Origin: Flavobacteriaceae bacterium NBU2977
Lineage (GTDB): Bacteria > Bacteroidota > Bacteroidia > Flavobacteriales > Flavobacteriaceae
Assembly (NCBI GenBank): GCA_019931105.1
Contig: JAIOUW010000001.1
Span: 62,001 to 126,000, forward strand
Length of the DNA: 64,000 bases
Direction of reading: 5' to 3'
A program made the position numbers and the translations under genes. Shown here piece after piece: positions 18,631 through 45,239 of this stretch (position 1 is its first letter; each line of letters starts with the position of its first letter). A model generated the notes under the pieces. The model was not told the DNA's origin. It searched no databases and worked only from the letters and a program-made list of their open reading frames with translations.

Positions 18631-19845
18631 ATGGAAGGTACAACCATTGATGTGGAACGCCTGCGGGATAAGATCAATCTGGTTCTCCGGGTCAATTATA
18701 TTGCCGCTTCCCTGGCCATAATATTTTCAGCTGTATGCCTTTTTCTGTTGAAAATAACTGAGATCGTCCCACATACCTTTTTGTTTTTTGGGTTGTTCAA
18801 CCTACTGAACACACTCCTTTTCAGGTATCACAAAAACCTTACCCTAACTTATAACATTTCATCGATAGCAGCGTTGGTCTCTGCCTTGGTCATCACCCTA
18901 TATACCGGCGGAATTGCGAGTCCGTTTATATTTACGCTGGCCTTGATCGTGTTTGCGGGCTATGTGACCACCAGACAATACGGCCAAGTTTATCTCAACC
19001 TAATTTTGTTCCTGATTATATTGATCTATTCACAAAGTTTGGAGGACTTTAGTTTTACAAGAAATGTCATTCCCGAAGAATCACAGAGTCTATTCAATTT
19101 GCTGTCCGTAATGTTCTCAGTATATCTTCTGGGCAATGTCTTCGGCAAGAATTTATTACGCACCCACCATCGCGTATATAAGTCAAAAATGGCCATAGCC
19201 CAACAGATAAAAGAGCGCGAGACACTTTTAAAAGAAATTCATCATAGGGTCAAAAACAATCTACAAACCGTTTCAAGTTTGTTGAGCCTACAGTCAAGAA
19301 ACATCGAGGACCCAAAAATGAAAGAGTTGATCAAAAGCAGCCAAAACCGTGTCATTTCTATGGCCATGGTACACGAAATGCTATATATGCGCGACGACCT
19401 TTCAAAAATTGAATATGAATCATATGTTCAAGAGCTCGCAGATTATTTGATCCGATCCCTCAAAGGGACCGAAAACCGCGTGAAATTAAATATTGATATA
19501 CACGATATCAAACTGGGAATAGATACCGCCATTCCATTGGGCCTGTTGATCAATGAAGCCATAACCAATGCCCTAAAATATGGTATTAAAGGAGATGAAG
19601 AAGGTGAAATCAATATCGCATTGAAAAAAGAGGCGGGCAGTGAATATGTACTGAACATTGGGGATAATGGTGTTGGTTTCCCAGAGACCGTAAATCATAA
19701 GAACACCAAATCTTTGGGCCTTAAACTCATACACAACCTTGCACGTCAACTAAAGGGTTCGATCAACCGCGACGCTTCAAAAAAAGGCACTTATTATATT
19801 GTGAAGTTCAAAGATATAGGCAGTAATTTTCATTCGATAGCCTAA
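18631..19845 (+). CDS. Membrane sensor histidine kinase, HisKA_2 type
   Basis: 404 residues: six membrane helices in the first ~175 residues and no periplasmic domain of note, then a short linker coiled coil, the HisKA_2 dimerisation/phosphoacceptor box KEIHHRVKNNLQTVSSLL (His204/His205, the second the likelier acceptor), and a HATPase_c domain with the N box (INEAITNALKYG) and G1 box (IGDNGVGFP). HisKA_2 kinases usually act with LytTR or other response regulators. No response regulator is adjacent, so it is an orphan. The membrane part probably senses a lipid-phase or small hydrophobic signal; this last point is inference. Confidence 0.9.
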   Translation: MEGTTIDVERLRDKINLVLRVNYIAASLAIIFSAVCLFLLKITEIVPHTFLFFGLFNLLNTLLFRYHKNLTLTYNISSIAALVSALVITLYTGGIASPFIFTLALIVFAGYVTTRQYGQVYLNLILFLIILIYSQSLEDFSFTRNVIPEESQSLFNLLSVMFSVYLLGNVFGKNLLRTHHRVYKSKMAIAQQIKERETLLKEIHHRVKNNLQTVSSLLSLQSRNIEDPKMKELIKSSQNRVISMAMVHEMLYMRDDLSKIEYESYVQELADYLIRSLKGTENRVKLNIDIHDIKLGIDTAIPLGLLINEAITNALKYGIKGDEEGEINIALKKEAGSEYVLNIGDNGVGFPETVNHKNTKSLGLKLIHNLARQLKGSINRDASKKGTYYIVKFKDIGSNFHSIA

Positions 19846-24364: not shown

Positions 24365-24622
24365 TTATGCCAATTTGGCTTTGGTATTTTTTGTAGCAAA
24401 ATCGAGCTCTTTTCTAACCTTAGAGTTTTTACGGCGATATAACCGAGCTACCGAGTTTTCTTTTTGGGCTGCCATTTCTTTTTTAGAAACAATATGATCG
24501 TTGCCAGTGACCAGAACAACACCCATTTCAATAGACTGAACTTTATCATGGTTTTCTATGTTTTGGGCCAGAGCGATTGCTCCGAAGATGAGTACAAATA
24601 CGAGTGTTAAAACAGCCTTCAT
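24365..24622 (-). CDS. Small exported basic protein, YRR/KxA family, member 1
   Basis: 85 residues: signal peptide ending around ALAQ (residues 1-19), then a short variable mature region and a strongly basic C-terminus, LYRRKNSKVRKELDFAT...KAKLA. That C-terminal pattern, YRR-x2-S-x-V-(K/R)-K-x-L-x-F...K-(M/L)-A, recurs in the three other small proteins at 25431, 26547 and 31301. I do not recognise a named family. A hairpin (24634-24653) lies 11 bases before the ATG, and an upstream element shared with members 2 and 3 lies at 24706-24730. Confidence 0.75.
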   Translation of the reverse strand: MKAVLTLVFVLIFGAIALAQNIENHDKVQSIEMGVVLVTGNDHIVSKKEMAAQKENSVARLYRRKNSKVRKELDFATKNTKAKLA

Positions 24623-24633
24623 AAGCTAAGATT

Positions 24634-24653
24634 GGGTTATACCAAGATAACCC
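24634..24653 (-). promoter_or_regulatory. Start-proximal hairpin of member 1
   Basis: GGGTTAT-accaag-ATAACCC is a perfect 7-bp stem with a six-base loop, 11 bases upstream of the ATG at 24622 and therefore inside the 5' leader, covering the ribosome-binding region. It may modulate translation or mRNA stability. Confidence 0.5.
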
Positions 24654-24705
24654 CGAAGCAGGCCCCGGAAGGGTTTCAAATCGCTAAAAACCCTTATTTT
24701 TCGGT

Positions 24706-24730
24706 ATCTGTAAAAAGGTCGGATGAAGTG
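24706..24730 (-). promoter_or_regulatory. Upstream element shared by the small exported genes (copy 1)
   Basis: On the coding strand it reads CACTTCATCCGACCTTTT followed by TACAGAT. The same element occurs upstream of members 2 and 3 as CACTTAATCCGAACTTTT + GCAGAT. The proximal edge is 84 bases from the A of the start codon in each case. It may be a promoter with an overlapping operator. Confidence 0.55.
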
Positions 24731-24873
24731 TTATAAAGTGTCGATAAAAATTCAAAGCGGTTAAAACGACTTGCCGAAAAAAAATGTTTTTTATCGATGA
24801 TTTTCCGCTATCAAAATGAACTTCCGATTTAAAATCTGACCGATCTTTGTTCTGGGAACCCTATATTTGTCTT

Positions 24874-25308
24874 GTGACCACCGCGCAATTTCAAGAGTTT
24901 TCAAAAAGGATCGATCAATTGACCCTTGAGCATAAACCAACGTTCGGAAAGATGAGTACGGGCCAAATGGTTTGCCATTGTACCGACCAATTGCGATTGG
25001 CTTTCGGATCTTTACGGCCTGATGAAGATTATATCAGAATTGACCCTAAAAAAGTCAGGGCACTTGCCCTTAGCGGAAAAACGGTACCTACTCCAAAAGG
25101 TTTGGACCAAGTGAAAGGTGGGGGCACCAAGCCTACGACCTTGGAAAATGACAAACTACTTTTAAAAGCACATCTGCAAGAGCTGGTTAATTTACCGGAA
25201 GATTATGCATTTGCACCACACCCCTATTTTGGGCCATTCGATAAAAAGAGATGGACGAACCTAACCATATACCACCTGAACCATCATCTCGCACAGTTCA
25301 ATGTATGA
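24874..25308 (+). CDS. DUF1569 (DinB-like) protein
   Basis: 144 residues from the GTG at 24874; a TTG at 24847 in the same frame adds nine residues of non-family character. The family pattern is clear by comparison with the paralogue at 54919: RI-x-x-LT...P-x-(F/W)GKM(S/N)xxQM-x-(C/A)HC near the start and a C-terminal L-x-x-HHLxQF. The fold is the four-helix DinB/YfiT bundle; His residues in HC and HLNHH could bind a metal. The reaction is unknown. It is divergent from the small exported gene at 24365. Confidence 0.75.
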   Translation: MTTAQFQEFSKRIDQLTLEHKPTFGKMSTGQMVCHCTDQLRLAFGSLRPDEDYIRIDPKKVRALALSGKTVPTPKGLDQVKGGGTKPTTLENDKLLLKAHLQELVNLPEDYAFAPHPYFGPFDKKRWTNLTIYHLNHHLAQFNV

Positions 25309-25430
25309 CCAAAAGGCATTCTTTATATCGGTCTTGAAATAGACCCACTTAGAAATTGCGCCCAAATTTGGGTATCTAACAAAAGTATTATCGGGAAACT
25401 AGTATTACAGCGGGTGAATTGATAGGTAGA

Positions 25431-25670
25431 TCATGCCATCTTCGCCCTATCCCTTTTGGTAGTGAAAGACAAGGCCTTCTTAACTTTACTGTTAGACCTT
25501 CTGTACAAACGGGCAACTTCGGTGTTTTTTTCGGTCACTGTTTTTTCGACGGTGATTTCGGTTACAATGCTCATTTCGATAGTTTCTACCTTTACTTCTT
25601 TGGTAGTGTTCTGAGCTTGGGCGGCCATTCCGACAAAAAGAACAAAAATTAAAGTTGCGATGGTTTTCAT
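25431..25670 (-). CDS. Small exported basic protein, YRR/KxA family, member 2
   Basis: 79 residues: signal peptide (KTIATLIFVLFVGMAAQAQ), a Glu/Val/Thr-rich middle (KVETIEMSIVTEITVEKTV) and the basic family C-terminus LYRRSNSKVKKALSFTT ending RAKMA. It is almost identical to member 3 (T42-to-K-type and K-to-N changes only). The mature peptide would be about 60 residues and is rich in Lys/Arg at its end. It is preceded by a hairpin that begins five bases before the ATG. Unknown function; secreted or periplasmic by its signal. Confidence 0.8.
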   Translation of the reverse strand: MKTIATLIFVLFVGMAAQAQNTTKEVKVETIEMSIVTEITVEKTVTEKNTEVARLYRRSNSKVKKALSFTTKRDRAKMA

Positions 25671-25675
25671 GACTT

Positions 25676-25698
25676 GCGTTTTTATATAATAAAAACGC
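25676..25698 (-). promoter_or_regulatory. Start-proximal hairpin of member 2
   Basis: GCGTTTTTAT-ata-ATAAAAACGC is a perfect 10-bp stem with a three-base loop, ending five bases before the ATG at 25670. It occupies the place of a ribosome-binding site. The same hairpin is conserved in the duplicated copy. Confidence 0.6.
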
Positions 25699-25753
25699 CG
25701 TAGGCCCCATTCTACAGGGTTTGCGTTCGTTCAACGAGACCAAATACTCGTCG

Positions 25754-25777
25754 ATCTGCAAAAGTTCGGATTAAGTG
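25754..25777 (-). promoter_or_regulatory. Upstream element shared by the small exported genes (copy 2)
   Basis: Coding-strand sequence CACTTAATCCGAACTTTT + GCAGAT, with the proximal edge 84 bases from the A of the ATG at 25670, the same spacing as in member 1. It lies inside the CGTTCG/CGAACG inverted arms (25724-25729 and 25792-25797). Confidence 0.55.
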
Positions 25778-26024
25778 CAAAAAACACTCGACGAACGTCT
25801 GAAAGGGGAATTACAACTTACCGAAAAAAGATGCCGTTCGACCGGATTATCCATCGGTTTGCAACAGTCAAAATTGCAGAGTTATGTAATTTATTGGCAA
25901 CTAAGGACTCAACAATCCGTCGGGCAAACCCCTAATCAAAATTTTATTTACCTTTTGGTCATATCGAAATTGATAAATTGCCCGAACAAGTTTAGAACCA
26001 GATAAACCTATAACCGCATTGATA

Positions 26025-26441
26025 ATGTCAGAATTTGAAATAAATGGTCTTGACCATGTCGCTATTCGCGTAAAAAATCTTGAAGCCGCCATTGGATGGT
26101 ATGAAAACGTTTTGGGATTAAAGGTTTGTAAACTGGCAAAATGGGGAGAATCCCCTATTTTCATGTTGGCCGGAAAAACGGGAGTGGCTCTTTTTTCAGC
26201 TGGCCTTAATGATACGGAACTTGACCCTCTATCAAAAAATGTAGGTATTGATCACTATGCATTTAATGTGACCCGAGAAAACTTCATAAAAGCGAAGATG
26301 CGATATGATAAGCTGGACATTGACTATGAATTTAAAGACCACTTCTACTTTCATTCGATATATACCAAAGATAGAGATGGGCATACTGTGGAACTGACCA
26401 CCTTGGTTGTCGATGAAAAGTCATTCTATTTGAGTGAGTAG
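26025..26441 (+). CDS. VOC-family (glyoxalase/dioxygenase-like) protein
   Basis: 138 residues forming one vicinal-oxygen-chelate module: LDHVAIRVKNLEAAIGWYENVLGL at the start (metal-ligand His), a second His at VGIDHYAFNV, and a closing DRDGHTVELTT with the Glu ligand. Typical members are glyoxalase-like, fosfomycin-resistance-like or ring-cleaving enzymes; the substrate cannot be told. The ATG at 26025 is preferred to the TTG two codons earlier. It lies between the two copies of the 369-bp duplication. Confidence 0.85.
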   Translation: MSEFEINGLDHVAIRVKNLEAAIGWYENVLGLKVCKLAKWGESPIFMLAGKTGVALFSAGLNDTELDPLSKNVGIDHYAFNVTRENFIKAKMRYDKLDIDYEFKDHFYFHSIYTKDRDGHTVELTTLVVDEKSFYLSE

Positions 26442-26546
26442 TTTTACGCTATGCTATGAATTACTTAATACTCGATTAGCTGGTTCATATCTCGAGAATC
26501 CACTTTTAAAAATTATCCCAGACACTAAAAGAATAATATGTATTGA

Positions 26547-26786
26547 TCATGCCATCTTCGCCCTATCCCTTTTTGTAGTGAAAGACAAGGCATTCTTAAC
26601 CTTGCTGTTAGACCTTCTGTACAAACGGGCAACTTCGGTGTTTTTTTCGGTCACTTTTTTCTCGACGGTGATTTCGGTTACAATGCTCATTTCGATAGTT
26701 TCTACCTTTACTTCTTTGGTAGTGTTTTGAGCTTGGGCGGCCATTCCGACAAAAAGAACAAAAATTAAAGTTGCGATGGTTTTCAT
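26547..26786 (-). CDS. Small exported basic protein, YRR/KxA family, member 3
   Basis: 79 residues, the near-identical twin of member 2, with the same signal peptide and basic C-terminus LYRRSNSKVKNALSFTT...AKMA. Two residues differ (Thr to Lys in the EK(T/K)V segment and Lys to Asn in the SKVK(K/N)A segment) against five silent changes, which suggests the protein is under selection to stay intact after duplication. The VOC gene ends 105 bases away on the other strand. Confidence 0.8.
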   Translation of the reverse strand: MKTIATLIFVLFVGMAAQAQNTTKEVKVETIEMSIVTEITVEKKVTEKNTEVARLYRRSNSKVKNALSFTTKRDRAKMA

Positions 26787-26791
26787 GACTT

Positions 26792-26814
26792 GCGTTTTTA
26801 TATAATAAAAACGC
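26792..26814 (-). promoter_or_regulatory. Start-proximal hairpin of member 3
   Basis: Identical to the hairpin at 25676-25698: 10-bp stem, three-base loop, five bases before the ATG at 26786. Confidence 0.6.
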
Positions 26815-26869
26815 CGTAGGCCCCATTCTACAGGGTTTGCGTTCGTTCAACGAGACCAAATACTCGTCG

Positions 26870-26893
26870 ATCTGCAAAAGTTCGGATTAAGTG
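26870..26893 (-). promoter_or_regulatory. Upstream element shared by the small exported genes (copy 3)
   Basis: Identical to the element at 25754-25777 because of the duplication, again 84 bases from the start codon. It is not independent evidence for the motif. Confidence 0.5.
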
Positions 26894-27046
26894 CAAAAAA
26901 CACTCGACGAACGCATCCCATACCCAAATCACTTAATCGAGACAAAGTGCATTTCAACCAAGTCCATCTACTTGTATTTACTTTCGTAATCGGATATTCA
27001 TGAGTATAAAAACATCAATTCAAAGTATTTTTCTATTTTTAGCCCC

Positions 27047-27285: not shown

Positions 27286-29841
27286 TCAAATTCCTTCTTT
27301 ACGGAGTACCTGCAATGGAGGGCTATTAAGCACGCCCCTACTGTTCATAAGACCGATAACCACGACCAACAGGGCTAACCCTGGCGCGACTACCAAGAAA
27401 GGTATCCAAGATGGTGAGAAATCGATGTTGAATACATATGCGGCCAATAATTTGCTTCCAAAAAAAGACAGGAGTACTCCCATACCGCTTCCCAAAATTC
27501 CCAAATAAAAATACTCCAGTGCAGTGATATTCAAAATCTGCTTGCCTTTGGCACCTATCGTCCGGAGCAAAACACTTTCCTTTATGCGCTGATATTTGCT
27601 GGTTCGCACCGACCCGATAAGCACAATAATTCCCGTCAAAATGCTAAAGAACGCCATGAAGTTGATGACCCACGATATTTTATCCAGAATGTTCTGAATC
27701 AGAATCATTAGTTGTCTCAAATCGATGATCGAAACGGTAGGAAATTTTTTTACGAGTTCTCGCTGCAAGCGTGCCGATGACCTTTCATCGGGGGCATTGG
27801 TACTCAAAACATGAAACTGTGGGGCGTTTTCAAGAACCCCTTTAGGAAATATTATCGAAAAATTCATTTGCATACGGCCCCAATCAACGGCGCGGGTGTT
27901 GGCGACCACGGTTTCCATCAATACGCCTTGAACATTAAAGACCAAGGTGTCGCCTTCCACCACCTTCGCATCTCTGGCGACATTATCGGAAAGCGAAATA
28001 GGAATGGCCCCACCTTTTTCAAATTCAGGATTCCATTTTCCCGAAGCAAGACTTTCAGATTCGGCAAGCGAGTCCCTATACGTGGTTCGAAATTCATGGT
28101 TCAAGACCCATCTGCTTATCGTTCGGGCCGTATCTTGGCGAATATCGTCTACCGATCGGCCCTTGATACTGTGCATTCGCATAGTAACTATCGGAACGTT
28201 ATCGATAACCTTCAAATCGTTGTTACGTATACTTTTATCCACACCCGATATTTCATGGGTCTGTACGTCCATTAATATAAGGTTGGGTGTTTTTCCGCTG
28301 GTTTCCAATGAAGTCTTGGCCACAAGTATGTTTTTGGTAAAATAAAGGGTGCTGATCAAAAAACTTCCAATACCGATTGCCAAAAGCAATACCAGCGTCT
28401 GGTTATTAGGGCGGTAGAGATTCAAAAGACTTTGACGCGCCGTAAAACCCCAAGACGATGGAAAGAACTTTTTAATCGCCCGCATTAACAAGGAGGCAAT
28501 TCCCGACAAAACACCAAAAACAATGAGTATTCCCAGAACAAAAAACAAAGCGAAACGTATATTGTTCAAAATCCAAAAGGAAAAACCGACCAAGAACAAT
28601 AATATGGCGGCCATCACCATTATTGCCAATCTCCGTTCCTTTTGCGAAGAGACTTCTTGAATTCGCAACACTTGGAGCGGAGAAACGTACCAGGTACCCA
28701 ACAAAGGCGACAGGGCGAACAATACTGACATAACAAGGCCCAATAACGGTCCGACGAACAATGGGCGCAAGGCAACGGAAATATCGATCTCCAAGGGCAG
28801 AAAATCCTTTAAAAGCATTGGAAAGAACTGTTGGAACATTAAACCGATTATGGTTCCGATAAGGCCTCCTAGCAATCCCATCCCTGCGATCTGTATCAGG
28901 TAAATCAAAAAGGATTGTTTTCGTGTTGCTCCCAAACATTTCAAAACGGCCACCGATACCAACTTTTCCTTGATATAAATATGTACCGAGCTGGCTATGC
29001 CCACGCAGCCCAATAAAAGGGCGATAAAGGCCACTAGGTTCAGAAAGCGGCCAAAATTGTCGTACCGGCGGCCCAATTGGCGTCCTGTTGACTCATGGGT
29101 GTCAAGATCGGCGTGTTCGGCATCAAGTATAGGATCCAATTTTTTGGCCATTTCTCTATAGTCCGGCTCGGGATCTGCCACAAAATAACTTTTATACTCC
29201 ACGCGGCTACCTATCTGAATCAATCCGGTCTTATCGATTTTGCGATAGGGAATATATACCGGAGGAGCCACGGAGGTAGATACACCCGTGCTACCGGGGC
29301 CGGAAGTTATCGAACCCGATATCGGCATGGTGACCAGACCTACCCGAATAGAATCACCTACCTTCAAGTCGAATTGCAGCATTAAGGTGGCGTCGACCAA
29401 CGCGCCTCCCCTGTTTTGATATTCAATGGCGGCCGAAGGTGGTTTCGTCTCCAAACTTCCATAAAATGGATACCCGCCTTGAATGCCCCGTACAAAGGCC
29501 AATTTGGTGCCGCCATTTTTTGGAAACGTGACCATGGACGGAAAATTGATCTCGGTCGCATTGGCACCACCCAAAGAATCGATGATGTCCTGAACTTTTG
29601 GCGTATGGGGCTGTCGACCGACTATCAAAAAATCGGAACCCATCAAGGATTTTGACTGCTTTGTAAAATTTTCCTTTAAATTATCACCAAAAGATTGAAT
29701 AGCCACCAGGGCTGCGACTCCCAAAATAATGGAGGCCATAAACAACAAAAGACGTTTGGCACTGGCCCGACCATCGCGCCATGCCATTTTCAGGAGCCAA
29801 GAAAAACCAGCTTCTCCATATTTTAACTGGCGGTCGCTCAT
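27286..29841 (-). CDS. FtsX-like ABC transporter permease (YbbP type)
   Basis: 851 residues: a first membrane helix (~residues 30-50), a large periplasmic domain, then FtsX domains in which groups of three to four helices recur (about 265-375, 410-510 and 725-845). This two-FtsX-domain layout with a long periplasmic part is that of YbbP-like permeases, which are thought to work on lipids or lipoproteins rather than small solutes. Its start overlaps the stop of the LolD-like ATPase gene by four bases (ATGA), so the two form one transporter. Confidence 0.9.
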   Translation of the reverse strand: MSDRQLKYGEAGFSWLLKMAWRDGRASAKRLLLFMASIILGVAALVAIQSFGDNLKENFTKQSKSLMGSDFLIVGRQPHTPKVQDIIDSLGGANATEINFPSMVTFPKNGGTKLAFVRGIQGGYPFYGSLETKPPSAAIEYQNRGGALVDATLMLQFDLKVGDSIRVGLVTMPISGSITSGPGSTGVSTSVAPPVYIPYRKIDKTGLIQIGSRVEYKSYFVADPEPDYREMAKKLDPILDAEHADLDTHESTGRQLGRRYDNFGRFLNLVAFIALLLGCVGIASSVHIYIKEKLVSVAVLKCLGATRKQSFLIYLIQIAGMGLLGGLIGTIIGLMFQQFFPMLLKDFLPLEIDISVALRPLFVGPLLGLVMSVLFALSPLLGTWYVSPLQVLRIQEVSSQKERRLAIMVMAAILLFLVGFSFWILNNIRFALFFVLGILIVFGVLSGIASLLMRAIKKFFPSSWGFTARQSLLNLYRPNNQTLVLLLAIGIGSFLISTLYFTKNILVAKTSLETSGKTPNLILMDVQTHEISGVDKSIRNNDLKVIDNVPIVTMRMHSIKGRSVDDIRQDTARTISRWVLNHEFRTTYRDSLAESESLASGKWNPEFEKGGAIPISLSDNVARDAKVVEGDTLVFNVQGVLMETVVANTRAVDWGRMQMNFSIIFPKGVLENAPQFHVLSTNAPDERSSARLQRELVKKFPTVSIIDLRQLMILIQNILDKISWVINFMAFFSILTGIIVLIGSVRTSKYQRIKESVLLRTIGAKGKQILNITALEYFYLGILGSGMGVLLSFFGSKLLAAYVFNIDFSPSWIPFLVVAPGLALLVVVIGLMNSRGVLNSPPLQVLRKEGI

Positions 29842-30527
29842 ATTTGAACGGCGTTATTGTTGGAAACCAGTTTTCCGCCCTTAAGCCTGATAATATGTTC
29901 GGTACGCTTGGCCAATTCAAGATCGTGCGTAACGATGATCAGCGTCGTACCCGCGCCATGGTTAAGGTCGAACAACAATTGTATGACTTTTTCTCCAGTT
30001 TCCTCGTCAAGGTTTCCGGTGGGCTCATCGGCAAAAAGTATGGACGGTTTGTTTGAAAAAGCACGGGCCAAGGCGACCCTTTGTTGCTCGCCTCCCGAAA
30101 GCTGCGATGGATAATGGTGCATGCGATCTTGCAGACCTACTTTTTCAAGCAACTCTACACCCGTCTTGCCTGCATTTTTTACCCCTTGTAGTTCAAGGGG
30201 TACGATAACATTTTCCAATGCCGTTAAAGTGGGAAGCAATTGAAAATTCTGAAAAATAAATCCAACCTCCCTATTGCGCAAAAGTGCACGTTCATCCTCA
30301 TTAAGATCATTGAGCTTGGTCCCGCAAAGCGCTACCGTACCGGTATCGGGCCGGTCAAGGCCGGCACATAGCCCCAATAATGTTGTTTTGCCACTGCCCG
30401 ACGGCCCAACAATTGCAAATGTTGCACCCGTCTCGACACTGAACGATATATCATCGAGTACTGTCAAGTTTTTAGAACCGCTCGTGTAGGTTTTCCCAAG
30501 ATTGTCAACGTTTAATATCTTTGTCAT
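29838..30527 (-). CDS. LolD/YbbA-type ABC transporter ATPase
   Basis: 229 residues: Walker A GPSGSGKTT (~residues 39-47), signature LSGGEQQR, Walker B ILFADEP and the H-loop THDLE. The spacing and the FIFQNFQLLPTLTALENV segment identify the LolD/MacB/YbbA group. It is the first gene of a two-gene operon with the FtsX-like permease. It is divergent from the TesA-like esterase at 30599, the same arrangement as ybbA-ybbP and tesA in E. coli. Confidence 0.92.
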   Translation of the reverse strand: MTKILNVDNLGKTYTSGSKNLTVLDDISFSVETGATFAIVGPSGSGKTTLLGLCAGLDRPDTGTVALCGTKLNDLNEDERALLRNREVGFIFQNFQLLPTLTALENVIVPLELQGVKNAGKTGVELLEKVGLQDRMHHYPSQLSGGEQQRVALARAFSNKPSILFADEPTGNLDEETGEKVIQLLFDLNHGAGTTLIIVTHDLELAKRTEHIIRLKGGKLVSNNNAVQI

Positions 30528-30598
30528 AAAATCGATTTCGTCATTTTGCGCAAAGACCGAAAAATAAGCATTTGATTTCGATTTCTTAATCCACAGGT

Positions 30599-31300
30599 AT
30601 GCAGATCTTCTTAAAGTTTCGTTATTTTTTGGTGATTATGGCCCTTGTCTCCTGCAAGGAAAACCAAAAAAAAGAACCAAAAAATGTTCCGGGGTCGACT
30701 ACTGAAAAGGTTTTGGAACCTCAAACCGAGACTGAAACCAAAACCATTCTTTTTTTCGGGAACAGCCTCACCGCAGGATATGGACTAAGTACCGAAGAAG
30801 CTTTTCCGGCACTGGTTCAATTGCGTTTGGATTCTCTTGGACTTGACTATACCGCTATCAATTCGGGACTCAGCGGTGAAACGACCTCGGGAGGATTAAA
30901 TCGACTGGACTGGGTATTGAACCAAAAGGTAGCTATTTTCATATTGGAACTGGGCGCGAACGATGGTCTGAGGGGTATTCCGCTTGACGAGACCAGACAA
31001 AATCTGCAATCCATAATAGATTTGGTACAAGCAAAAAATAGCGATACCGAAATAATTTTGGCGGGCATGCAGATTCCGCCCAATATGGGCCAAGATTATA
31101 CTACTGAGTTCAGAAAAATCTACCCTGATCTGGCCGAAAAGAACGGGTTGAGGCTCATCCCGTTTATATTGGACGGTGTTGCCGGTATTCCCGAGTTGAA
31201 TTTACCTGACGGAATACATCCGACCGCTGAAGGTCATAAAATAGTTCGTGATAATGTCTGGGAGGTTCTAAAGGAAGTACTTGGTCTAACTGAAAGTTGA
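30599..31300 (+). CDS. SGNH/GDSL esterase lipoprotein (TesA/arylesterase-like)
   Basis: 233 residues with a lipoprotein signal (lipobox ALVSC, Cys19). The SGNH hydrolase blocks are complete: block I FFGNSLTAGYG with the catalytic Ser, block II NSGLSGETT with Gly, block III LGANDGLRG with Asn, and block V DGIHPTAEGH with Asp and His. TesA-like members hydrolyse acyl thioesters and lysophospholipids. It is divergent from the LolD-like/FtsX operon. Its TGA lies directly next to the stop of the minus-strand gene at 31301, the two sharing the hexamer TGATCA. Confidence 0.88.
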   Translation: MQIFLKFRYFLVIMALVSCKENQKKEPKNVPGSTTEKVLEPQTETETKTILFFGNSLTAGYGLSTEEAFPALVQLRLDSLGLDYTAINSGLSGETTSGGLNRLDWVLNQKVAIFILELGANDGLRGIPLDETRQNLQSIIDLVQAKNSDTEIILAGMQIPPNMGQDYTTEFRKIYPDLAEKNGLRLIPFILDGVAGIPELNLPDGIHPTAEGHKIVRDNVWEVLKEVLGLTES

Positions 31301-31552
31301 TCAAGCCATTTTTACCTTGTTTTTTCTACCATGAAAGAACAAGTGCTTCTTGACGACCGAAAGCCTTCTTCTGTAAATCAAGGAAAGTTCTTGTTTTGAT
31401 TCTGCATTATCGAACAAAGTAATGTCGGCCTTAAAATTACTTTTCGAAAACGGAGCGGTCTCGACGATTTTCACCTTGTCAAGGGGAAAATTTTGTGCGC
31501 GGCCAAGAATTCCAAAAAATAATACTATAAACAAAAGTATAATACTCCGCAT
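31301..31552 (-). CDS. Small exported basic protein, YRR/KxA family, member 4 (divergent)
   Basis: 83 residues: signal peptide (SIILLFIVLFFGILGRAQ), a variable middle and a C-terminus IYRRRLSVVKKHLFFH...KVKMA that keeps the family pattern seen in members 1-3. It is the most diverged copy, which makes the conserved positions informative. The gene is convergent with the esterase, without any spacer. The upstream region has a weaker hairpin and a degenerate form of the shared element. Confidence 0.65.
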   Translation of the reverse strand: MRSIILLFIVLFFGILGRAQNFPLDKVKIVETAPFSKSNFKADITLFDNAESKQELSLIYRRRLSVVKKHLFFHGRKNKVKMA

Positions 31553-31866
31553 GGTTCGAGGGGTTTGGTCTCGTTATAACCCTTCAACCGTTGTTTTGAC
31601 GTGTTTCAATTCGGTAAAGTGCTTGGTTTTGACGATAAAAAGAATAAAAATCGGTGAATGGCCAAATTTTGTAGTCCTACAAAAAGACTTGTAAGAACCT
31701 ATAATCGAAAAAATCATACATTTAATCGATGTATTCGGCAATAAAAGGAAGGTTAATCGAATCGATCGATTTAATTGCTTCAAATAACGCGACTAATTCT
31801 TAATGATTCCCGTAAGTATTTGTAAATTTTAGCTACTAATCGGCATTGAAAAACAAAATAATCAAA
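31553..31866 (-). promoter_or_regulatory. Upstream region of member 4 with degenerate shared element
   Basis: 314 bases between member 4 and msrA with no gene. On the minus strand, CACTTTACCGAATT (31609-31621 region) resembles the CACTTnATCCGAnCTTTT element of members 1-3, but it is closer to the start (58 bases) and has one base fewer. GGGTT/AACCC (31561-31565 and 31578-31582) could form a weak hairpin nine bases before the ATG. The half nearer msrA shows no clear consensus promoter. Confidence 0.3.
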
Positions 31867-32550
31867 ATGAAGCTATTTAAAGTTACGATTCTAGTTTTGG
31901 CCACAATGGTTTCGAGTAGTTGCCAATCAAAAGTCAGGGAGCACAAGCAGGTTGAAACTTCGGAACATATTGAAGAAAGCGTTATTCCAGTTTCCCAGGA
32001 TTTAAAAAATTACGAAACCGCATATTTTGCAAGCGGCTGTTTTTGGTGCGTCGAGGCCATTTTCGAAAGTGTAAGGGGTGTCAAGGAAGTGATTTCGGGA
32101 TATTCTGGTGGAAGCGAGAAAAACCCGACCTATGAGCAAGTCGGGCGCGGACTCACAACCCATGCTGAAGCCGTAGAGGTCTATTACGACCCCAAGGAAA
32201 TTTCGTTTACCGAACTGGTCCAAGTATTTTTCGGGTCGCACGATCCTACCAGTTTTAATAGGCAAGGTCCTGATAGGGGGCCACAATACCGATCTATCGC
32301 ATTTTATAAAAACGAAGATGAAAAGAAGATTATCGAAGACTATATGAAAGCCTTACGTGAGCAAAAAATCTACGACGCCCCTATTGTTACCGAAGTGACA
32401 AAATTCGTCAAGTTCTATGACGCCGAAGATTATCATCAAGATTATGAACGAAAACACCCGAACAATTCATATATCAGAAATGTTTCGATACCGCGGTTGA
32501 ACCGGTTCAAGAAAAATTTTCCCGGATTTCTGAAAGAAGAAGCTCATTGA
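31867..32550 (+). CDS. msrA: Peptide methionine-S-sulfoxide reductase, lipoprotein
   Basis: 227 residues from the ATG at 31867 (a TTG seven codons earlier is less likely, because the ATG gives a clean lipoprotein signal with lipobox SSSC). The MsrA active site GCFWCVEAIFE is complete, followed by GYSGG and HAEAVEV. The enzyme reduces methionine-S-sulfoxide in oxidised proteins, here at the envelope. The C-terminal part reads EDYHQDYERKHPNN. No MsrB domain is fused. It is a single gene, followed by the MG2/plug protein 104 bases later. Confidence 0.93.
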   Translation: MKLFKVTILVLATMVSSSCQSKVREHKQVETSEHIEESVIPVSQDLKNYETAYFASGCFWCVEAIFESVRGVKEVISGYSGGSEKNPTYEQVGRGLTTHAEAVEVYYDPKEISFTELVQVFFGSHDPTSFNRQGPDRGPQYRSIAFYKNEDEKKIIEDYMKALREQKIYDAPIVTEVTKFVKFYDAEDYHQDYERKHPNNSYIRNVSIPRLNRFKKNFPGFLKEEAH

Positions 32551-44365: not shown

Positions 44366-45239
44366 AAAGCTCATCAGCATTTTGAAAATCGCCATCAGTG
44401 CGATACTCGTCTATTTTATTTTTACAAAGGTCGATTTCGCCGAAGTATGGACCATACTTAAAAGAACGAATCCTTTTTACTTCTTTTTGGCCGCCATTCT
44501 TTTCGTTCTGTCAAAGATGATCGCGGCCTTTCGCCTTAACCTTTACTTTCATCGGTTAAAAATATTCCTGACCCAAAAAAGTAATTTGAAGCTTTATCTT
44601 TTGGGCATGTTCTACAATCTTTTTCTTCCCGGGGGAATCGGTGGAGATGCTTATAAAGGCTATTTGATCAAAAAGAAATTTGAGGTAAGTACCAAAAAGG
44701 TAATATCGGTTTTGCTGTTGGACAGACTCAGCGGATTGCTGCTTCTCTTCGTATACGCCTGCATATTGGCGACAGTTGTAGACAATCAAGATCTTCAGGG
44801 GCTCAGGCCTTGGTTCGTTGTGGCCATTCTTTTAAGTATCATATCGTTTTGGCTACTTAACAGAAGGTTTTTCAAGGATATGCTTCCAGTATTTTGGATG
44901 TCTTTTTTGCACTCGGCAATCGTGCAATTGGCGCAATTGGCCAGTGCCTATTTTATCTTGAAATCCTTGGGGATCGTATTGGACACTATCGCTTATCTAT
45001 TCATATTTCTGGTATCTTCCATTGTGTCCGTAATACCTCTAACCATTGGCGGTATAGGTAGCCGCGAAGTTACTTTTTACTACGGGGCGACCTTGTTCGG
45101 CTTGGACCAAACGAGTTCAATAAGTATAAGTATGGTCTTTTTCTTTATATCAGCGCTCGTTTCTTTTCTAGGAATTTATTACCATTTCAAGAAAGTTGAC
45201 TTAGATGTTAAGGCCGGTAACAATGAAACCAAGAATTAA
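44346..45239 (+). CDS. YbhN/UPF0104-type membrane protein (lysylphosphatidylglycerol-synthase TM-like)
   Basis: 297 residues, about seven to eight membrane helices, with the family motif FLPGGIGGDAYKGYLI near residue 95 and SVIPLTIGGIGSREVTFYYG near 235. The domain matches the flippase part of MprF/LPG synthase. Alone, such proteins are suspected lipid-linked sugar or lipid translocases. Start TTG at 44346 (or GTG one codon later), overlapping the GT2 gene by 20 bases, so the two are translationally coupled. Its stop overlaps the stop of the convergent GT39 gene. Confidence 0.82.
   Translation: MVANRRKKLISILKIAISAILVYFIFTKVDFAEVWTILKRTNPFYFFLAAILFVLSKMIAAFRLNLYFHRLKIFLTQKSNLKLYLLGMFYNLFLPGGIGGDAYKGYLIKKKFEVSTKKVISVLLLDRLSGLLLLFVYACILATVVDNQDLQGLRPWFVVAILLSIISFWLLNRRFFKDMLPVFWMSFLHSAIVQLAQLASAYFILKSLGIVLDTIAYLFIFLVSSIVSVIPLTIGGIGSREVTFYYGATLFGLDQTSSISISMVFFFISALVSFLGIYYHFKKVDLDVKAGNNETKN

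Follow-up and report, generated by a model that had tools for sequence, protein, structure and literature searches.

In the Flavobacteriaceae, the genes of a little-studied family whose members are small exported proteins are preceded by an array of six related sites, a and b in antisense orientation followed by c, d, e and f in sense orientation, each with a core close to TTnAYCGA in aligned family upstream DNA and held at nearly fixed distances from its neighbors. Judged from sequence, the array is very likely an operator and its sites are probably bound by protein, with a regulator of the LytTR class as the likely reader. Four of these genes lie in the window, by which we mean the whole 64,000-nt stretch of DNA analyzed here, and that they share a common regulatory element is well supported.

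The small exported proteins and their six-site array

The four family genes of the window are as follows.

24365 to 24622, minus strand: member 1, small exported protein of 85 aa
25431 to 25670, minus strand: member 2, 79 aa
26547 to 26786, minus strand: member 3, 79 aa
31304 to 31552, minus strand: member 4, a distant family member of 83 aa (E = 2.2e-4 from member 1), its end given without a stop codon

The window proteins, of 79 to 85 residues, consist of a signal peptide and a basic, conserved C terminus. Members 2 and 3 represent a recent duplication, and many genomes carry several family genes. Neither Pfam nor NCBIfam yielded a match above cut-off for members 1 to 3, and there was no match among solved structures. 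The AlphaFold2 model of member 2 is of low confidence and mostly unstructured (mean pLDDT 59.6), with the signal-peptide helix alone averaging above 70. Among the titles and abstracts listed for the terms used, none concerned either the family or the array. In the window the family adjoins genes for an FtsX-type permease, its ATPase, a GDSL lipase and MsrA (27286 to 32547), relatives of which occur in 37, 39, 36 and 30, respectively, of 76 neighborhoods.

The four arrays, and a palindrome within one of them, are located as follows.

24677 to 24801, minus strand: member 1 array, from the site matrix; cores a 24793 and b 24773 antisense, c 24745, d 24724, e 24705 and f 24685 sense
25723 to 25848, minus strand: member 2 array, from the site matrix and alignment; cores a 25840 and b 25820 antisense, c 25792, d 25771, e 25752, and f at about 25731 from alignment only
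26839 to 26964, minus strand: member 3 array, closely copying the member 2 array from roughly site c onward; cores a 26956 and b 26936 antisense, c 26908, d 26887, e 26868, with f as in member 2
31607 to 31733, minus strand: member 4 array, from the site matrix, without c; cores a 31725 and b 31704 antisense, d 31655, e 31636 and f 31615 sense
31667 to 31684, no strand assigned: palindrome TTTTGTAG-GA-CTACAAAA at the would-be site c of member 4

Sites a to f of member 1 score 15.0, 7.6, 10.0, 10.1, 7.3 and 7.3 bits with a matrix that includes these sites, and lie at -171, -151, -123, -102, -83 and -63 relative to the ATG. In member 2, sites a to e score 7.0 to 14.0 bits. The sense site f falls below 5 bits in both members 2 and 3, and in member 2 an antisense match of 6.3 bits is found at 25733. 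Sites a, b, d, e and f of member 4 score 13.5, 11.2, 12.9, 10.5 and 13.5 bits and lie at -173, -152, -103, -84 and -63 from its ATG at 31552. Thus, contrary to the first-pass annotation, which placed the element of member 4 at another distance, these five sites are displaced by at most 2 bp from the member 1 positions, and c alone is absent. Stretches like the palindrome also occur in some relatives of member 4. Across the window, 20 site pairs reach at least 16 bits, compared with 0, 1, 3 and 6 in four shuffles. The four family genes account for 12 of these 20 pairs and for 11 of the 12 pairs of at least 20 bits, the twelfth lying at 44551.

The same annotation had reported that members 1 and 2 share CACTTnATCCGAnCTTTT followed by CAGAT on the minus strand, and both do, with CAGAT ending at 24706 and 25754, in each case 84 bases from the first base of the start codon (24622 and 25670). 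The fixed 84-base distance holds for the CAGAT edge but not for the 18-mer itself, which lies one base farther from the ATG in member 1; the gap between CTTTT and CAGAT is two bases in member 1 versus one in member 2. This observation is real and understated: the motif is the middle part of the larger array, the 18-mer corresponding to site d and CAGAT to the beginning of site e. The description of the upstream DNA of members 1 and 2 as otherwise unrelated does not stand, as both carry an array of related sites of about 125 bp. Member 3 does owe its motif to duplication, as its sequence nearly repeats that of member 2 over a stretch that starts at the motif and runs on into the gene.

Exact matches to the motif in the 64-kb window number three, each before a family member, and allowing three mismatches gives four matches against 1.03 expected, with at least four found in 1 of 100 shuffles. 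The annotation had suggested a genome-wide scan with the 18-base pattern, and the 3.8-Mb genome was scanned with a 17-base form of it. The exact matches are again three, all before members 1 to 3 rather than mostly within genes, the distribution named as telling against the motif. The 19 places with up to two mismatches do not exceed the 17 found with a reversed control pattern, so the exact matches alone stand out. The three one-mismatch places sit within other ORFs (gene context was inspected for the exact and one-mismatch places, the other 13 having two mismatches).

Comparison of orthologous upstream regions shows the array to be conserved. Homologues were drawn from relatives together with 75 loci of named genomes, including Maribacter, Zobellia, Arenibacter, Euzebyella and Eudoraea. 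The 201 profile matches yielded 191 with a usable start and 230 bp of upstream DNA, of which 161 were distinct; clustering these at 80% identity left 93, all from Flavobacteriaceae. At least five sites of at least 5 bits are present in 77 of the 93 upstreams, and never more than three in 465 shuffles, with sites sought within 4 bp of their expected place and a matrix built from all 93, so that this count is in-sample. When a weight matrix from one random half of the 93 was applied to the other, the held-out halves contained 5.0 and 5.1 sites per upstream, compared with 0.8 in dinucleotide shuffles; the halves were drawn at random without regard to genus, and a single alignment of all 93 supplied the site columns. 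Same-strand spacings in the held-out halves are almost exclusively 19, 20 and 21 bp, plus values near 40 and 60. From a to f the usual spacings are 20, 28, 21, 19 and 21. The a-b spacing is 20 in 60 of 71 upstreams (11 nt between 9-nt repeats), b-c is 28 in 66 of 71, c-d is 21 in 74 of 75 (12 nt between 9-nt repeats), d-e is 19 in 74 of 75, and e-f is 21 in 52 of 69 and 20 in the other 17. Seven of the 93 upstreams have two sites or fewer, and at L008 and L072 we suspect that insertions close to the start codon have displaced the array.

The reach of the array, the promoter and the leader

A sequence model of the whole array was built from the upstreams, 79 of the 93 being listed and 53 used, with the member 4 group left out. 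In this genome the model finds members 1, 2 and 3 at 79.7 to 81.3 bits, with the next match at 17.6 bits (150 of 2135 first-look candidates scored). Built without the member 4 group, it gives no match to member 4, which the site matrix does detect. Among 25 hand-chosen genomes, matches below 1e-8 are present in nine of nine with the family, part of these matches having no assignment to a listed family place, and in none of 16 others, the best of which reaches 23.5 bits. As far as was searched with the whole-array model, the array looks private to the family. The promoter or operator and regulon proposed in the first-pass annotation are therefore retained as a regulatory element that the four genes and the 93 upstreams have in common, but not as a regulon beyond the family: strong matches to the array model and to the 17-base pattern lie at family genes only. 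This rejection concerns whole arrays, with single sites or pairs outside its scope.

The Bacteroidota sigma-A promoter carries a -7 box, TAnnTTTG, according to the portion of PMC9723704 available to us, and the 3' half of the motif had been likened to such an element. Measured against that box, members 2 and 3 show a loose match (AACTTTTG), which differs from TAnnTTTG at one position in member 2; member 1 differs at two. Neither stretch scanned in the 93 upstreams has an overall excess over expectation, with 42 matches versus 36.6 expected at -110 to -80, which lends the -7 reading no support, and 69 versus 74 at -80 to -12. Near-matches peak locally at -96 (12 of 93) and at -27 (15 of 93), and the TAnnTTTG scan of -110 to -12 did not locate the promoter.

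Inverted repeats are found immediately before the start codons of members 1 and 2.

24634 to 24653, minus strand: GGGTTAT..ATAACCC, just before the member 1 ATG
25676 to 25698, minus strand: GCGTTTTTAT..ATAAAAACGC, just before the member 2 ATG

The letters of this repeat change in many relatives, yet complementarity is kept (5.99 within sequences versus 4.90 with arms swapped, the maximum of 20 swaps being 5.20). Arms of at least 6 occur in 52 of 93 upstreams compared with 10% in shuffles, and the leader fold energy has a mean z of -2.5. The repeat may form a leader hairpin. RNAalifold found no consensus structure in the leader, perhaps as a result of arms shifting register.

Two readings that would deprive the array of a role as a protein-binding operator can be weighed against these data. 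One is that the upstream stretch is transcribed as a structured RNA leader in which stems form between opposed sites. The sequences of a and b are close to complementary to those of c and d, and the retained pairing and fold energy of the repeat before the ATG would suit such a leader. Pairing of a or b with c or d, however, shows no excess, as 63 to 402 of 500 column shuffles reach the observed value; the sole low figure, 6 of 500, was for b with e, a pairing meant as a control. Neither RNAalifold nor Rfam, which gave no match at the arrays, supports the reading, and the lack of covariation between opposed sites argues for a DNA rather than an RNA element. We consider the RNA leader very unlikely. 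Still less credible, to the point of being nearly negligible, is that the similarity is functionless and merely inherited through duplication and descent. The recent duplication of members 2 and 3 and the multicopy nature of the family are what such an origin would produce, but among upstreams less than 80% identical to one another information is high at the site cores and near zero between them, while the spacing stays fixed.

Kinase and LytTR genes that accompany the family

Two genes, one in the window and one elsewhere in the genome, track the family.

18631 to 19842, plus strand: membrane HisKA_2 histidine kinase (Pfam HisKA_2, 1.3e-28)
G000:C9:560663-561409 (the same as L202:2464-3210, minus strand), outside the window: candidate LytTR response regulator

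At E 1e-60 the window kinase is found in 76 of 397 genomes, including 69 of the 71 with the family; the family occurs without it in G082 and G228, in the latter of which a family gene stops just 22 bases short of the edge of its contig, and seven genomes have the kinase without the family. Kinase and family lie on one contig within 20 kb in 54 of the 57 genomes for which both places are listed (12 more have no listed family place), and within 1 kb in 17 of the 57. Several relatives (L126, L127 and L133) carry two or three kinase genes in tandem. In G403, G280 and G247, which lack the family, the kinase still lies beside secA, and the closeness of kinase and family is therefore partly old synteny. 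The kinase contains a GGxxSPF motif, which we take to be reminiscent of the RegB quinone motif. A search of kinase neighborhoods for a partner revealed four paralogue loci with a stand-alone receiver of about 130 aa, which name no DNA-binding partner. From co-occurrence, we infer that the kinase may have some role with the family.

The candidate regulator combines a receiver and a LytTR domain, and its gene adjoins one for a TPR-HisKA_2 kinase. LytTR domains number 17 in the genome, and when all 17 loci were examined for repeat pairs, the best pair (21.7 bits), GCATTTCAT-N11-GCATTTCAT, was found between these two genes. The regulator-kinase gap (L202:2200-2320) contains two copies of GCATTTCAT plus two TTGTGTAATGC-like repeats in reverse orientation, a layout resembling that of the family array. 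Of the 30 flanks of another 15 LytTR genes in the genome, one has a pair, located inside an ORF; at the last locus no LytTR ORF was called. The receiver of the candidate resembles the stand-alone receivers beside the window-kinase paralogues at 75 bits, compared with 33 for the next LytTR protein.

Among 397 Flavobacteriaceae genomes, an orthologue of the candidate is present at 78 to 100% identity in 70 and as a 90% fragment in one more, and these 71 are exactly the 71 that have the family at E 1e-6 (in G082 on a weak match, 7e-7). A further 11 genomes have an orthologue at 57 to 77%, none of them with the family, and the next match is at 45%. Co-occurrence was computed for the candidate among the 17 LytTR domains. 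Repeat pairs at the regulator locus were sought in 27 of the 71 family genomes, in all 11 with the 57 to 77% orthologue and in three more distant ones. Pairs of at least 16 bits lie within 600 nt downstream of the regulator in 12 of the 27 (0.6 in shuffles), the other 15 having none there; pairs are upstream in 0 of 27 and inside the gene in 3 of 27. Downstream pairs occur in 0 of the 11 and 2 of the 3, and that the kinase gene lies beyond the downstream stretch was checked in this genome. Three similar repeats about 20 bp apart are seen downstream of a 40%-identical regulator in a distant relative without a family match (L243).

SecA was compared as a gauge of shared descent. Its identity to that of this genome is 86 to 98% in seven family genomes and 80% in three without the family, and the candidate is 86 to 99% and 67 to 75% identical in the same genomes. 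Thus, in these 10 genomes, regulator conservation matches that of SecA where the family is present and is lower where it is absent. SecA also shows that the family genomes form a clade, so co-occurrence alone proves little, and shared descent could be the source of the association between regulator and family. The assignment of the candidate as regulator of the array is a moderate bet.

A proposed circuit and its relation to known LytTR operators

Scored over eight positions of a LytTR consensus, sites c and d fit well, b partly, and a, e and f poorly, with at least seven positions matched in 41 of 79 (c), 31 of 83 (d), 22 of 77 (b), 5 of 80 (a), 3 of 79 (f) and 2 of 78 (e) against a background of 1.1%. 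Most LytTR sites consist of two repeats of 9 to 11 nt with 11 to 13 nt between them and lack a common consensus, according to the part of PMC4847170 that we consulted. The a-b, c-d and most e-f pairs obey this spacing rule, and the d-e spacing of 19 falls outside it. The site tables excerpted from PMC6193735 likewise fit the array sites in repeat length and spacing.

We propose that the six-site array would control transcription of the small exported protein genes. A LytTR-type response regulator would bind as dimers on the a-b, c-d and e-f pairs, about 20 to 21 bp apart, and would activate, rather than repress, a weak promoter predicted to lie between site f and the ATG. The likeliest such protein would be the candidate encoded beside the TPR-HisKA_2 kinase gene, and the separate HisKA_2 kinase of the window may feed into the same pathway. 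To the full reading, a dedicated operator array read by this particular regulator, we give slightly less than an even chance. The near-fixed spacing of the array, which here spans about 110 bp, would imply one large ordered protein-DNA complex.

A competing account, which we hold to be only a little less likely than this reading, is that the operator is real and is read by another regulator, either a different LytTR protein or a non-LytTR protein recognizing direct repeats, with the candidate being a clade marker. The array evidence does not name the protein, the 17 LytTR domains of the genome offer other choices, and sites a, e and f, three of the six, fit the LytTR consensus poorly. In addition, at three family loci a membrane LytTR gene without a receiver is divergent to the family gene (L129:3492-4313, L044:1687-2505 and L050:7566-8294). 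Against this account, nothing in the present genome matches that membrane LytTR gene above 33 bits, and the best intergenic repeat pair at any of the genome's LytTR loci is the one at the candidate. As a general regulator of the family the membrane LytTR gene was rejected, its best match here being 33 bits; G002 has an orthologue of it at another place. The dedicated array with its named regulator could also be extended into a Gram-negative, peptide-like circuit in which the co-occurring membrane HisKA_2 kinase senses the small basic proteins and signals to the LytTR protein, whose binding to the array would switch their genes as a feedback loop; this extension, which draws on gene co-occurrence and closeness, we regard as improbable. 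On the preferred reading, a family without a Pfam or NCBIfam match gains a testable candidate regulator, and the array could open a signaling pathway in marine Flavobacteriaceae.

Among known systems, the LytTR regulatory systems (LRS) described in the sections of PMC6193735 available to us pair a LytTR regulator with a separate cognate membrane inhibitor and have repeats before their own operon. The arrays resemble LRS in their LytTR-type direct repeats and in the three family loci with a membrane-embedded LytTR gene. They differ in that the candidate regulator has a receiver domain, that the membrane LytTR gene is missing from this genome, and that no repeat pair lies within 600 nt upstream of the candidate in 27 of 27 family genomes. 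Other parallels are the operators of LytTR response regulators such as YpdB and AgrA, which, as presented in the parts of PMC4847170 and PMC4227749 that we consulted, are likewise direct repeats with cores about 20 to 21 bp apart upstream of a gene. The repeat GCATTTCAT at the candidate locus shares nine of ten bases with the YpdB repeat given in the former. In contrast to these operators, which have two sites, the array has six in a near-fixed layout, a and b being reversed, and neither its d-e spacing of 19 nor its opposed a-b pair is what a simple operator of two repeats would show. Measured against the two-repeat LytTR operators covered in those same parts of the two papers, it would be the more elaborate arrangement.
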